A model generated the notes under the pieces. The model was not told the DNA's origin, did not search any database, and worked only from the letters and a program-made list of their open reading frames with translations. A DNA stretch of 64,000 bases from Aliidiomarina iranensis (lineage in GTDB: Bacteria; Pseudomonadota; Gammaproteobacteria; Enterobacterales; Alteromonadaceae), in NCBI RefSeq assembly GCF_003987135.1, contig NZ_PIPJ01000002.1, positions 124,001-188,000 on the forward strand, given 5' to 3'. Of this stretch, positions 54,492 to 64,000 are shown piece by piece. Both the position numbers and the translations under genes were made by a program. How positions within the stretch are numbered: position 1 is the stretch's first letter; each line of letters opens with the position of its first letter.

Positions 54492-54531
54492 TAAAAAAGA
54501 AGAGCTCGGAACTAAGGGGGGTGTTCCGAGC
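54492..54531 (-). terminator. Terminator of the ansA unit, in a cluster of hairpins
   Basis: GCTCGGAAC (54504-54512) and GTTCCGAGC (54523-54531) form a 9-bp stem; on the minus strand a T-run (complement of 54493-54498) follows. Two other perfect hairpins flank it: GCTGTT-TTT-AACAGC (54454-54468) directly after tatD and AGGCTCA-ATTA-TGAGCCT (54541-54558). No gene is seen in the 294-bp gap 54453-54746. Confidence 0.75.
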
Positions 54532-54746
54532 CCAGGGAAAAGGCTCAATTATGAGCCTTGCGCTAAACGAAAAAATGGATGACAACAGCTGTGCTTTATA
54601 CCGCTTGAACACCTTTTGAATACCTTTTGGCATGCCACTACATCAATTTAAATATCAAATAAACCGGCAAGCCAGTAAAATAAAGTGTAGCCACTGTTTA
54701 TTATTTGTCCAATTTTTAGTTTGCTATTTTCCCTGATATCTTCGCT

Positions 54747-58516: not shown

Positions 58517-58543
58517 CCTTGCAGAATTTCCACACCAAACAAA

Positions 58544-58561
58544 TGAATAATTAATCATTCA
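58544..58561. promoter_or_regulatory. Candidate ArgR (ARG) box upstream of the arginine operon
   Basis: TGAATAATTAATCATTCA is an 18-bp near-palindrome (8 of 9 pairs). Its first 14 bp match the E. coli ARG-box core TGAAT-4-ATTCA with one difference. It lies about 75-90 bp before the argCB start, where ArgR with arginine would repress. A possible promoter (TTGATT at 58577, TACCAT at 58600, 17 bp spacing) lies just downstream. Confidence 0.6.
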
Positions 58562-58634
58562 ATGCGCATAATAATGTTGATTGTGCGCAGCATTTTTTAT
58601 ACCATGAGCGCTATTCGGATTCTAAGTAGAAGCA

Positions 58635-60581
58635 GTGCAGATAAGTGGTATGAAGAACGTGGCAGAAAAACCTAAAGCAAAAAAGCCCAGAGAAGAAAAG
58701 CCTGAGGCCAACAAACTTAAGGCAATAGAGCACGGAGCGCCAAGCAAAATAGCCTTATGCAAACAAAAAGGTTTGCAAGTGGCCGTGTTCGGCGCCAGTG
58801 GCTATAGTGGCAACGAATTAGTGAGCCTTTTGAATAAAAATGCATACTTTGATGTAGCATTTGCATTTTCATCGGCTCGCAGTGAGGCTCAAGCATTTTC
58901 GGAATTGGCACCGCAGCTTGCAGGCACCGAAACTCTGGTTATAGAACCTTGGCAAGAAACCTATTTCCCTAAGGTTGCCGCAAAGTGCAGCGCGGTTTTT
59001 CTTGCATTGCCTCATGAAGCAAGCGCTGAGCTTGCTGCACGTTTTGTTGCTGCAGGGGTGGCTGTATTTGATCTCTCTGGTGCTTACCGTTTTGCTTCGG
59101 CCGAGGCATTTGCCAGTGCTTATGGGTTCTCGCACCCACATCCAGAACTATTAGCCGACGCACACTATATGCTTATGGAGTGGTTAGAGGCCTCATGCAA
59201 ACAAAACGTAGATAATCATTTACTGTTTAGCATTCCAGGTTGCTATCCAACCGCTGCAACTTTAGCTCTGAAACCACTTACAGAACATCATTTATTGGCA
59301 GCAAATGCCTCTCCGGTAATTACCGCCGTAAGTGGCGTTTCTGGTGCTGGACGAGGGCTCAATGCACGAACTTCATTTTGTGAGGTGAGCTTACAGGCCT
59401 ACGGTGTGTTAAATCACCGGCACACACCGGAAATAGCAAATAATTTACAGCGTACTGTGGTGTTCACGCCGCAACTGGGCAATTACAAACGCGGCATTGT
59501 AGCAACCTGTGTAGCGCAACTCGCTGAACAAGTAAATCCGGCCGACGTGTATCGAGCCTACGAGATAGCTTATGCAAGCCAGCCGTTTGTTCGGATTGTC
59601 GGGAAGCCGCCTGCTGTTGATGATGTTGTTAATACGCCGTTTTGTGATATCTACATAAAAGTAGAAGGTAACCAAGTGGTGGTTATTAGTGCGATTGATA
59701 ACTTAATTAAAGGGGCTGCTGGTCAAGCAATGCACGCTGCTAATTTTGTGTTTGGGTTACCTCTTACTGCGGGTTTTGAAAGCTCTTTTGCAAAAAAACG
59801 CCCTCAGGTAATTAAGGTTGGCGGTGCCTTGCTACAACCTGAAAATGCTGAAAGCGCCTTGTTGCCTTTATTATCCGCTTTAGCGGTAAGCGAGCTACCC
59901 GTTGTGTTTGTGCATGGCGGCGGTGATATAGTGGATAGCATGCTAAAGCAAGCAGGGTTAACCGCAGAAAAGCATGCAGGGCAGCGGATTAGTGCGGCGG
60001 AGCACATGGACATTATTATTGGTAGCCTAGCCGGAACTACCAATAAAAAACTTGTACAAGCGGCGCAGCAAGCTAGCTTATCGAGTGTTGGTATTAGCCT
60101 AGCCGACGGCCCATTGTGGCAAATGCAACACAACGCTCAGCTTGGCATGGTGGGGCAACCGGCGGCAACGGGGTTCAGCCCGCAAGGTAAAGCCTTATTA
60201 AAAACGCTGCTGCAAAATAACTTCACGCCTATTGTGAGCTCTATCGGCTTAACTACTGACCATAAACTGTGTAATGTAAATGCAGATTATGCCGCCGCGG
60301 CCATTGCTTTAGCGCTTGATGCTGATTTACTTTTGCTTACCGATGTTCCCGCTATTCTCAACGGTGAGAAAGAAAAGATTGGTGATATAAGTTTAAGTGC
60401 TGCAAAAGCATTGCTTCAGGAAACCTTCATTCAAGGCGGCATGAAAGTTAAGCTGGAAGCCGCAATTTTTGCCTCCGAATTTTCCCGACGAACCACTGCG
60501 ATTGCGGGTTGGGCTGATAGTTCTGCCGTGATCGCACACCTACAAGGGAATCCTCAGGGTACCCGAATAATTCCAGAATAG
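58635..60581 (+). CDS. argCB: Fused N-acetyl-gamma-glutamyl-phosphate reductase / acetylglutamate kinase (ArgC-ArgB)
   Basis: One 648-codon frame encodes two arginine enzymes. Residues about 47-381 are ArgC: VAVFGASGYSGNEL (NADPH), catalytic Cys203 in SIPGCYPTAA, HRHTPEI, NYKRGIVATC and NLIKGAAGQAMHAAN. Residues about 391-648 are an E. coli-type ArgB of about 258 residues: VIKVGGALL, VFVHGGGDIVD, IDIIIGSLAGTTNKKL-like HMDIIIGSLAGT, NVNADYAAAAIA, LLLTDVPAI and QGGMKVKLEAA. A linker of about 9 residues (ESSFAKKRP) joins them. A K/E/P-rich extension of about 46 residues precedes ArgC. The start may be GTG 58635, ATG 58650 or a later TTG/GTG. No frameshift is visible. It heads argF-argG-argH. Confidence 0.92.
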   Translation: MQISGMKNVAEKPKAKKPREEKPEANKLKAIEHGAPSKIALCKQKGLQVAVFGASGYSGNELVSLLNKNAYFDVAFAFSSARSEAQAFSELAPQLAGTETLVIEPWQETYFPKVAAKCSAVFLALPHEASAELAARFVAAGVAVFDLSGAYRFASAEAFASAYGFSHPHPELLADAHYMLMEWLEASCKQNVDNHLLFSIPGCYPTAATLALKPLTEHHLLAANASPVITAVSGVSGAGRGLNARTSFCEVSLQAYGVLNHRHTPEIANNLQRTVVFTPQLGNYKRGIVATCVAQLAEQVNPADVYRAYEIAYASQPFVRIVGKPPAVDDVVNTPFCDIYIKVEGNQVVVISAIDNLIKGAAGQAMHAANFVFGLPLTAGFESSFAKKRPQVIKVGGALLQPENAESALLPLLSALAVSELPVVFVHGGGDIVDSMLKQAGLTAEKHAGQRISAAEHMDIIIGSLAGTTNKKLVQAAQQASLSSVGISLADGPLWQMQHNAQLGMVGQPAATGFSPQGKALLKTLLQNNFTPIVSSIGLTTDHKLCNVNADYAAAAIALALDADLLLLTDVPAILNGEKEKIGDISLSAAKALLQETFIQGGMKVKLEAAIFASEFSRRTTAIAGWADSSAVIAHLQGNPQGTRIIPE

Positions 60582-60659: not shown

Positions 60660-61568
60660 ATGCATTTACTATCATTATTTGATGTGTCGGCCATTCAGAT
60701 ACGGCATATCCTTACGATGGCGGGGTACATGAAAGCCCACCCGGTAAGTTTTCAACATTCATTAAAGAATAAATCAATTGCCATGCTGTTTGAAAAACCA
60801 AGTTTGCGCACCCGTGTTAGTTTCGAAGTAGGCATTCAGCAGCTCGGTGCGCAACCGATTTACTTAGATGCACAAATGGTTGAACCTGGCCAACGCGAGA
60901 GCGTTGAGGATATAGCCCGTAATCTTGCGTGCTGGACACACGGCATTGTTGCTCGGGTTTTTAAACATGAAACCTTACACAAGCTAAAGGCAGCTGGCAT
61001 TCCAGTTATTAATGCACTTTGTGATATTCATCACCCGTGTCAAACCTTGGCTGATTTACTAACCATTCAAGAGCGCTACCCAGTTGATATGAAAGTAGTG
61101 GATATTCTCTATGTGGGTGAGGGTAATAACGTGTGCCAAAGTTTAATGGTAGGAGCCGCTGCGCTAGATTTGCAGCTAACGGTAATAAGCCCTGAGGGTT
61201 TCGGCCCAAATAAGGATTTCCTTGCTGAGCTTACAGATAAGTATCCAAGCCACCGCATTAAACTTGGCAGCAATATCGATGAGGTTACTCACGCCGATGT
61301 GATTTACACCGATACCTGGCTTTCCATGGGGGACACGCGCAATTATTCGGAAACCTGCAAAATTTTCCAGCCTTACCAAGTTAATTCGGCACTTGTTAAA
61401 CGCCTGCAAGCTACCACGGTAATGCACTGTTTACCGGCGCATCGGAACAATGAGATTACTGATGAAGTTATGGATAGCACGATTAGTGCTGTGCTGCAGC
61501 AGGCGGAAAATCGTTTGTATGTGCAAAAAGCCGCGTTACATCATTTATTCGAGGAGATTTCCCAATGA
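60660..61568 (+). CDS. argF: Ornithine carbamoyltransferase
   Basis: The 302-residue enzyme makes citrulline from ornithine and carbamoyl phosphate. It has the carbamoyl-phosphate loop [24 protein letters not shown], the ornithine loop DTWLSMGDT and [13 protein letters not shown]. The SLRTR variant of the usual STRTR is seen in other Alteromonadales as I recall. The stop overlaps argG by 4 nt. Confidence 0.93.
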
Positions 61569-62806
61569 ACCACCTTAACCAGAGAGATATTACCCAAACT
61601 GCGGTGAGCAAAGTTGTATTGGCTTATTCCGGTGGTTTAGATACTTCCGCAATTATTCCTTGGTTATTAGAGAATTATAACTGTGAAGTTATTGCTTTCG
61701 TTGCCGATGTAGGCCAAGGCGACGAAGAGCTTGTTGGCATTGAAAATAAGGCTTTAGAATCAGGCGCCAGTTCCTGTTACGTGGTGGATCTAAAGGATAA
61801 ATTTGTGAACGAATTGATTGCACCAGCGATGCAAGCTGGGTGTATCTATGAGGAACAATATTTACTAGGAACCGCTTTGGCAAGACCAGTAATTGCAGAG
61901 GCGCAAGTGCAACTTGCTCTTGAAGTCGGTGCTGATGCGGTTTGCCATGGATGTACTGGCAAAGGTAACGATCAAGTGCGTTTTGAGAGTACGTTTGCAG
62001 CTTTAGCGCCGCAATTAACGGTAATTGCGCCATGGCGTGAGTGGTCAATGCGCTCGCGCCAAGAGCTACTTAATTACTTGGCCGAGCGGAATATTAAAAC
62101 TTCCGCTTCAGCGACCAAGATATACAGCCGTGATGCGAATTTATGGCACATTTCCCATGAGGGCGGTGAGTTAGAGGATCCATGGGAACAACCAACCGAT
62201 GGCGTTTGGACATTGAGCAATTCACCCCAACAGGCGCCCGATCAGCAAGAGGTACTGGAGCTAGAATTTTCTCAAGGTGTATTAACTCATCTGAATGGCC
62301 AAGCACTGAAGCAAACCGAAGCGTTAGTAATGCTAAACAAAATCGGTGCAGAGCACGGTGTAGGGCGGATTGATATTGTAGAAAACCGCTTGGTAGGCAT
62401 GAAATCACGAGGTTGTTATGAAACACCCGGTGGTACTATTTGGTACCAAGGTCTTCGTGCACTTGAAGAGTTGGTGCATGATCGTCCGTGTCAACGCTTG
62501 CGCCATGATCTTGGCCAACGGTTAAGTGATGTACTTTATGATGGTCAGTGGTTTACGCCCGTGCGCGAGGCGTTAGTTGCAGCCGTAAGTGCGCTAGCCA
62601 CGAAACTTACCGGTACGGTGCGAATTGCGTTATACAAAGGTAACGTTACGGTAATCGGCCGAAAATCACCGTTGAGTTTATATTCTGAAGCATTCGCCAC
62701 CTTTGAAGAAGATGAAGTGTACCAGCAGAGCGATGCCGAAGGCTTTATTCGCTTATTCAGCCTAGCAAGCCGTATTCGTGCACTTAAACAAGGAGGCATG
62801 GCATGA
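61565..62806 (+). CDS. argG: Argininosuccinate synthase
   Basis: The 413-residue protein joins citrulline and aspartate using ATP. P-loop [34 protein letters not shown] and [12 protein letters not shown] are visible. It is coupled to argF (ATGA) and to argH (ATGA). The N-terminus has about 15 residues before the conserved core, which may include a few non-conserved codons. Confidence 0.95.
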
Positions 62807-64000
62807 GTATGTGGGGAGGCCGCTTTGAGCAGGGGAGTGCGGCAGAGTTTTGTGAGTTTAATGATTCACTGAAATTCGATTACGTGCTGGCGCCTTTTGA
62901 TATTCAAGCAAGTAAAGCGTGGGTAAATGCATTAACCGAGCAAGCGTTGCTGACTAGCGAAGAGCAAAAGCAACTGCAGGACGGTTTAGCTGAGTTAGCT
63001 GCGGAAATACAAGTTAATCCTAAGTTGCCGCTTAGTAGCAATGCCGAAGATATTCACAGCTGGGTGGAAGAGGCGCTGCAAGATCGTTTAGGGAATGTAG
63101 CAAGGAAATTACATACGGGCCGATCCCGAAACGATCTTGTTGCTACCGATCTGCGCCTTTGGGCGATCGCTAAAGCCCATGTGATGGGTGAACAGATCGC
63201 TGCAACGATCGAAGCATTGATCGCTTTTGCGGAGCGCTATGAATTCAGTGTGATGCCAGGCTACACTCATTTGCAGCGGGCACAGCCGGTATTAGTATCA
63301 CATTGGGCGTTAGCCTATGTGGAAATGCTAGAGCGAGATTTGGATCGTTTAAAACAAGCTCGAGATCGTTTATCTACGCTACCTTTGGGTTGCGGAGCGC
63401 TCGCGGGATCTGGAATTGCGGTAAATCGATCATTGTTAGCAAAAGAACTAGGCTTTAATGATCTTTGCCGGAATAGTTTAGATGCGGTATCTGATCGTGA
63501 TTTTGTAATTGAGTTACTATCTATTGCAAGCTTGGGGATGGTTCATTTATCCAGGCTTTCGGAAGATCTTGTTTTCTATTGTTCGGGTGAGGCAGGTTTC
63601 TTTCTGTTGGGCGATGCAATTTCCAGTGGTTCATCGTTAATGCCACAGAAGAAGAACCCAGATGTATTTGAGTTAATTCGGGGGAAAACGGGACGCGTTA
63701 GCGGGCATTTGCAGGCCATGTTAATGACAGTGAAAGGGTTACCCCTGGCTTACAACAAGGACATGCAGGAAGATAAGGAAGGCTTCTTTGATGCGCTCCA
63801 GCAATGGCAACAATGCCTTGCCATCATGGCGTATGCATTGCCGCATCTAACGGTTGATGAAGCACTTGCACAGAAATCGGCTGAACTGGGCTACAGCAAT
63901 GCTACTGATTTAGCTGATTACTTGGTGGGTAAAGGCATTGCGTTTCGTGATGCTCACGAGATTAGCGGCAAGCTTGTACTCACAGCGCTGCGAAAAAAAG
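62803..64000 (+). CDS. argH: Argininosuccinate lyase, N-terminal part (cut by window end)
   Basis: About 399 codons are open to the window edge, starting [13 protein letters not shown], which is the ArgH N-terminus. It contains [30 protein letters not shown]-like ([13 protein letters not shown]) and the fumarase/lyase signature [12 protein letters not shown] near residue 280. ArgH is normally about 455-470 residues, so 60 or more are missing. In several Alteromonadales and Vibrio relatives argH is fused to an ArgA acetyltransferase domain; this cannot be seen here. The start overlaps argG by 4 nt. Confidence 0.93.

Follow-up and report, generated by a model that had tools for sequence, protein, structure and literature searches.

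A reductase-first argC-argB fusion in the arginine operon of Aliidiomarina iranensis and two related species

The fused frame and its operon

In the genome of Aliidiomarina iranensis, argC and argB, which encode acetylglutamyl-phosphate reductase and acetylglutamate kinase, are fused in one open reading frame. The order of the operon is argCB (fused), argF, argG and argH(A), and the last of these genes is cut by the end of the window, that is, the whole stretch of 64,000 nucleotides that was analysed. The features discussed below are the following.

58542..58559, + strand: ArgR-box-like site upstream of the operon (17 of 18 consensus positions)
58635..60581, + strand: argC-argB fusion open frame (648 aa, stop codon 60579-60581)
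58635..58778, + strand: in-frame 5' stretch, either an untranslated leader or a Lys-rich N-terminal extension (possible starts at 58635, 58650, 58659, 58773 and 58779)
58779..59777, + strand: ArgC part (Cys codon 59241-59243, His codon 59421-59423)
59778..59807, + strand: linker of 10 residues (30 nt), equal in length in three fused genomes and divergent in sequence
59808..60578, + strand: ArgB domain, acetylglutamate kinase (codon starts: Lys 59814, Arg 59985, Asn 60273, Asp 60285, Lys 60450)
60660..61568, + strand: argF, the next operon gene after the fusion
61565..62806, + strand: argG, overlapping argF by 4 nt
62803..64000, + strand: argH(A), cut by the window end and continued in L083:2504-4345 (613 aa, C-terminal GNAT domain)

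A preliminary description, made from the letters of this DNA, had claimed a stop-free frame from ArgC through ArgB with the reductase first, both domains of full length and both catalytic signatures intact. All of these claims were borne out, and no stop codon occurs in 58635..60581 between residues 381 and 391, where that description had allowed for a missed one. Residues 48-382 of the 648-aa frame match the NCBIfam ArgC model TIGR01850 with 321.6 bits (cut-off 233.6) over positions 2-339 of the 345 in the profile, and residues 392-615 match the ArgB model TIGR00761 with 169.1 bits (cut-off 151.3) over positions 3-223 of 231. Both enzymes are thus nearly completely covered at scores above the curated membership cut-offs, and no NCBIfam model among the matches listed for the fused protein covers the two together. 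At an E-value of 0.001, the Pfam content of the protein consists of semialdehyde dehydrogenase and AA_kinase domains only, the reductase part matching the Semialdhyde_dh families PF01118, PF22698 and PF02774.

The residues expected for catalysis are in place in both domains. The Cys of the PGCYPT motif and the His of the HRH motif, which we take to be the active-site residues of ArgC, are present, and they are C and H in 36 of 36 alignment rows that cover those columns. When the kinase domain was aligned with the E. coli enzyme (1gs5), the equivalents of the active-site residues Lys8, Arg66, Asn158, Asp162 and Lys217 (E. coli numbering) were all found. The R, N, D and second K are conserved in all 36 rows; the first K occupies 36 of the 39 rows that have a letter at its column, and the other three letters (E, D and L) are most likely the tails of ArgC rows. 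R66, N158 and K217 have been named as active-site residues of ArgB (PMC4490483).

The closest solved structures are those of separate enzymes, 3dr3 and 2g17 for ArgC and 1gs5 for ArgB, and no solved chain among the matches listed spans both domains. AlphaFold2 models were obtained for the fusion (pLDDT 92.9, pTM 0.84) and for the fused protein of a relative, G004 (pLDDT 92.5, pTM 0.85); their alignments have nearly all rows in common, so that the two models are not independent. In the predicted structure, both domains are confidently folded.

In the genome (2,647,903 bases, 36 contigs, completeness 99.93%), a single argC and a single argB exceed the cut-offs, both in the fused frame, and the best other matches reach only 38 and 31.6 bits. 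The fused protein is thus predicted to be, probably, the only source of both activities. As for step 1 of the pathway, no argA over cut-off and no match to argJ were found in the genome, the best argA score (76.3 bits) being that of the GNAT stretch of argH(A), and because of this argH(A) is the likely source of that step. By these assignments, steps 1 and 8 would probably be carried by one protein and steps 2 and 3 by another, and with argH(A) six arginine activities would probably be packed into four operon genes.

The 5' end of the frame is less definite than the rest. The preliminary description had let the frame run from 58635, and it is indeed open from there, but GTG 58635 is merely the first of five candidate ArgC start codons, followed by ATG 58650, GTG 58659, TTG 58773 and GTG 58779. 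Ribosome-site energies do not single out one of them, and residues 1-46 fall outside both the Pfam domains and the match to the argC model. A Lys-rich in-frame stretch (58650-58778) precedes ArgC, and possible starts 20-30 codons upstream also occur in several relatives (values for 10 genomes). A possible reading of these sequences is therefore an N-terminal extension of ArgC in this group.

Upstream of the operon, the ArgR-box-like site at 58542..58559, scored with a consensus that we presume to be that of the ArgR box, is a weak indication of regulation. An equally good match lies inside the fused gene (58829-58846), and the whole window holds no excess of such matches (10 found against 17.4 expected with up to 3 mismatches). 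Between this site and argC, a stem-loop of 10 base pairs with a run of T behind it (58563-58589, + strand) may terminate the gene upstream or serve the arg operon as a leader element. Promoter-like and terminator-like sites around the fused gene were in no excess over shuffled sequences. The only Rfam match in the window at gathering score is the small RNA SdsR/RyeB at 54496-54596 on the - strand (RF00111, 55.4 bits against a gathering score of 38).

Fused and separate genes within the genus

The fusion was found in 3 of 17 genomes of the genus, namely A. iranensis (G000), G004 (72% identical) and G002 (67%). These three are well diverged from one another: pairwise identity is 69.5-73.3% in ArgC and 64.3-71.7% in ArgB, and synonymous sites are near saturation (pS 0.72-0.80 in the domains), dS being saturated for ArgC. 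Non-synonymous differences are far fewer (pN 0.18-0.25 for ArgC, 0.20-0.28 for ArgB). Two complete enzymes are joined in three diverged genomes, which puts the frame beyond chance, and, judged from these sequences, a gene whose fused frame has persisted this long in three lineages is functional.

The remaining 14 genomes carry two distinct genes, argC and argB, which lie in different frames, and the argC stop overlaps the argB start, which we assigned as ATG in each, by 1, 4 or 8 bases. Tight coupling of the two genes has been described in I. loihiensis, where they overlap by 3 nt (PMC1382215). Separate genes at the same place in close relatives were regarded in the preliminary description as a finding against the fusion; they do exist in 14 of 17 genomes, but the fusion stands, as it is common to three species. 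Between the GAxGQA motif in ArgC and the K-GG motif in ArgB, the distance is 81 nt in each of the fused genomes. Of the 14 unfused genomes, 5 had a match to the motif and could be measured; there the distance is 95 nt (G012, G015 and G016), 110 nt (G006) or 80 nt (G011), always out of frame.

In maximum-likelihood trees, the fused three form one clade in ArgB (99/96), in ArgF+G+H (99/99) and in ArgC (90/87, a support under the usual mark), and therefore a single origin of the fusion is best supported by the sequences. The fusion would most likely have arisen once, in an ancestor of the three sampled species within one group of marine Idiomarina-type bacteria, through a minor net change in junction length by which the overlapping argC stop and argB start were lost and the two frames brought into register. 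Because the distance is 81 nt in the fused genomes and 95 nt in G012, G015 and G016, a net change of 14 nt relative to those three relatives, or an equivalent one, would have closed the frame. The earlier translational coupling would thereby have been replaced by a fixed 1:1 covalent link. The reductase-first order follows from this origin, as the 14 unfused relatives have the gene order argC-argB, and in itself it is no clue to function.

Separate ArgB might still be made from within the fused gene. Within 30 codons before the kinase motif, the sole in-frame start common to the fused three is a GTG 20 codons upstream, in the tail of ArgC, and its ribosome-site energy is 0, 0 and -1.7 kcal/mol; the 14 unfused argB starts lie between -3.1 and -11.0 kcal/mol. 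Thus, in the 30 codons searched, the three genomes have in common no internal start for ArgB that pairs at the ribosome site, and probably not much ArgB is produced separately. Some internal initiation may occur in G000 and G004 at an in-frame ATG 26 codons before the kinase motif, which has energies of -6.7 and -3.1 kcal/mol, respectively, within the range of the real starts; this ATG is absent in G002.

The divergence of ArgC+ArgB relative to that of ArgG+ArgH does not indicate relaxed selection on the fused sequences. The ratio is 2.61-3.15 in fused pairs (mean 2.81, n=3 pairs) and 1.69-5.01 in unfused pairs (mean 2.23, n=91 pairs), so that the fused values lie inside the unfused range, though above its mean. 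Whether or not the genes are fused, the mean divergence of ArgC and ArgB is more than twice that of ArgG and ArgH.

Occurrence beyond the genus and related systems

The fused protein was searched against draws of genomes from the family (395 genomes, 385 with a match), the order (394, 360), the class (274, 227) and the phylum (398, 385), and against a draw of 58 relatives (53 with a match). The draws overlap, and the whole genomes are all Pseudomonadota. Among the matches listed for the family, order, class and phylum draws, roughly the best 150-160 in each, no stop-free joined ArgC-ArgB was found other than those of G000, G002 and G004. In the order, at least 91 of 394 genomes give a match that extends through argC and argB in a single frame interrupted by one to four stops. 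In these genomes only one or a few base changes would seem to separate the two genes from fusion, and still none of the 91 is fused.

Several long open frames were inspected as candidates and rejected (G966, G1018, G788, G899, G841, G924, G989, G606, G527, G1041, G1097 and G1069, also G017 and G036). Each of these 14 proved to be a lone ArgC, sometimes preceded by an extended open stretch, or else ArgC and ArgB lying in separate frames; the length of an open frame alone does not make a fused gene, and a further candidate, G755 (577 aa, one stop), lies outside the inspected set. When the contigs of close relatives were scanned, one relative matched (L035). Among the best 20 of 150 plasmid records, 13 have separate argC and argB features, 1 has argC only and 6 are unannotated under the match.

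The same two enzymes are also derived from a single frame in fungi. In the Arg5,6 or arg-6 precursor, the kinase comes first, a NAT-type (DUF619) domain follows the kinase, and the precursor undergoes mitochondrial processing (PMC3329491, PMC4490483), in agreement with the preliminary description, which had named one precursor with the kinase in front that is later cleaved. Unlike the fungal protein, the Idiomarina fusion has its reductase (48-382) before its kinase (392-615), a linker of 10 residues and no NAT/DUF619 domain in Pfam at an E-value of 0.001; its kinase is nearest to the E. coli-type ArgB among solved structures.

Bacterial fusions involving arginine enzymes are known as well. 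In Haliangium ochraceum, the gene Hoch_4300 fuses NAGS to argC; it has been likened to the yeast gene, and the organism has an ArgB of its own besides (PMC4490483). Like the Idiomarina protein, Hoch_4300 joins an enzyme of the amino-acid-kinase family from the arginine pathway to ArgC, but its partner is the synthase of step 1, whereas here the partner is ArgB with ArgC in front, and no acetyltransferase domain is found in the Idiomarina fusion by Pfam. The NAGS/K of Xanthomonas and Maricaulis is likewise a bacterial bifunctional arginine enzyme containing the kinase (PMC4490483; see also PMC1865377); unlike the ArgC-ArgB chain, it combines steps 1 and 2 without ArgC. The argH(A) fusion has been known in the arginine operon of marine gammaproteobacteria, including I. 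loihiensis (PMC1382215). It belongs to the same operon and the same bacterial group as the ArgC-ArgB fusion and is present in the A. iranensis genome, but it joins the first and last steps of the pathway rather than consecutive ones.

A parallel in chemistry is found in the proline pathway. In P5CS (ProB-ProA), too, a kinase and a reductase act one after the other, with an unstable acyl phosphate as the intermediate (PMC8963878, PMC11061531), and a eukaryotic origin has been described for this enzyme (PMC11061531). Unlike that of P5CS, the reductase of the Idiomarina fusion is of the semialdehyde-dehydrogenase type, and no aldehyde-dehydrogenase family is matched in Pfam. The kinase comes first in P5CS, and its reductase (ProA) is of the ALDH type. 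No bacterial ArgC-ArgB fusion with the reductase first came up among the papers listed in searches of the open-licence PMC literature; the preliminary description knew of none either. The kinase-reductase pairing is already known with the kinase first.

How the fused chain may work

The linker, with its limits set by us at '..TAGF' of ArgC and 'VIKVGG' of ArgB, counts 10 residues rather than the about 9 first estimated. Its length is the same in the three fused species, while its sequence is only 10-30% identical (pN 0.53-0.61), with a Phe at the fourth position in each. Transcript slippage at the run of seven A in the linker was considered and dropped, as the run is missing, by eye, from G004 and G002.

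We consider it probable that the frame yields one bifunctional chain, ArgC in front and ArgB behind, which serves steps 2 and 3, arose once by a small length change and is likely the sole source of both activities. The kinase domain would phosphorylate N-acetylglutamate, and the reductase domain would reduce the resulting acyl phosphate to the semialdehyde. From the sequences, we infer that each domain has its activity and the chain remains whole, and that tethering would fix a 1:1 stoichiometry and bring the two sites close together. That the frame instead results from a mistake in sequencing or assembly, or from gene decay, is barely conceivable: the junction has the same length and frame in three genomes, the domains have changed far less at non-synonymous than at synonymous sites, and the genome contains no second copy of argC or argB over cut-off. 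A sequencing slip in particular is very unlikely, because the three diverged genomes share the frame and the length of the linker and not its sequence. Cutting of the chain after synthesis into ArgC and ArgB would have its precedent in the processed Arg5,6 precursors of fungi (PMC3329491, PMC4490483), but the processing of the yeast precursor is mitochondrial, and the linker here is just 10 residues long and unconserved, with no common cleavage site visible. Such a polyprotein is thus highly improbable.

A more ambitious reading is that the short linker of fixed length positions the active sites so that acetylglutamyl phosphate is passed on with little escape, and that the fusion was selected on that account. 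The constancy of linker length against its divergent sequence would fit, as would the short helix predicted at the linker in both AlphaFold2 models, the whole-chain pTM being 0.84-0.85. By analogy with P5CS, for which transfer of the acyl phosphate between domains in filaments has been proposed (PMC8963878), channelling of acetylglutamyl phosphate is possible. However, three sequences are few for inferring a constrained length, and argC and argB are already tightly coupled in the unfused relatives. Moreover, fusion by stop loss looks easy in at least 91 of 394 genomes of the order and none of these is fused, which argues against a strong general advantage. Channelling as the reason for the fusion therefore seems to us rather unlikely. 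Equally doubtful is the fuller form of this idea, a dedicated bacterial kinase-reductase channelling enzyme with its domain order reversed relative to published kinase-reductase fusions, in which the length of a helical linker, not its sequence, would be selected for active-site geometry.

The genus offers a natural experiment in which the same two enzymes, at the same place in the operon, are made either from overlapping genes or as one chain, so that the gain or cost of fusing enzymes around an unstable intermediate is directly testable there. The three fused genomes and their relatives also show a route from a stop/start overlap in an operon to a fusion via a small length change. Provided that both domains have the activities inferred for them, the genomes show in addition that an enzyme pair with the reductase in front is workable in cells.
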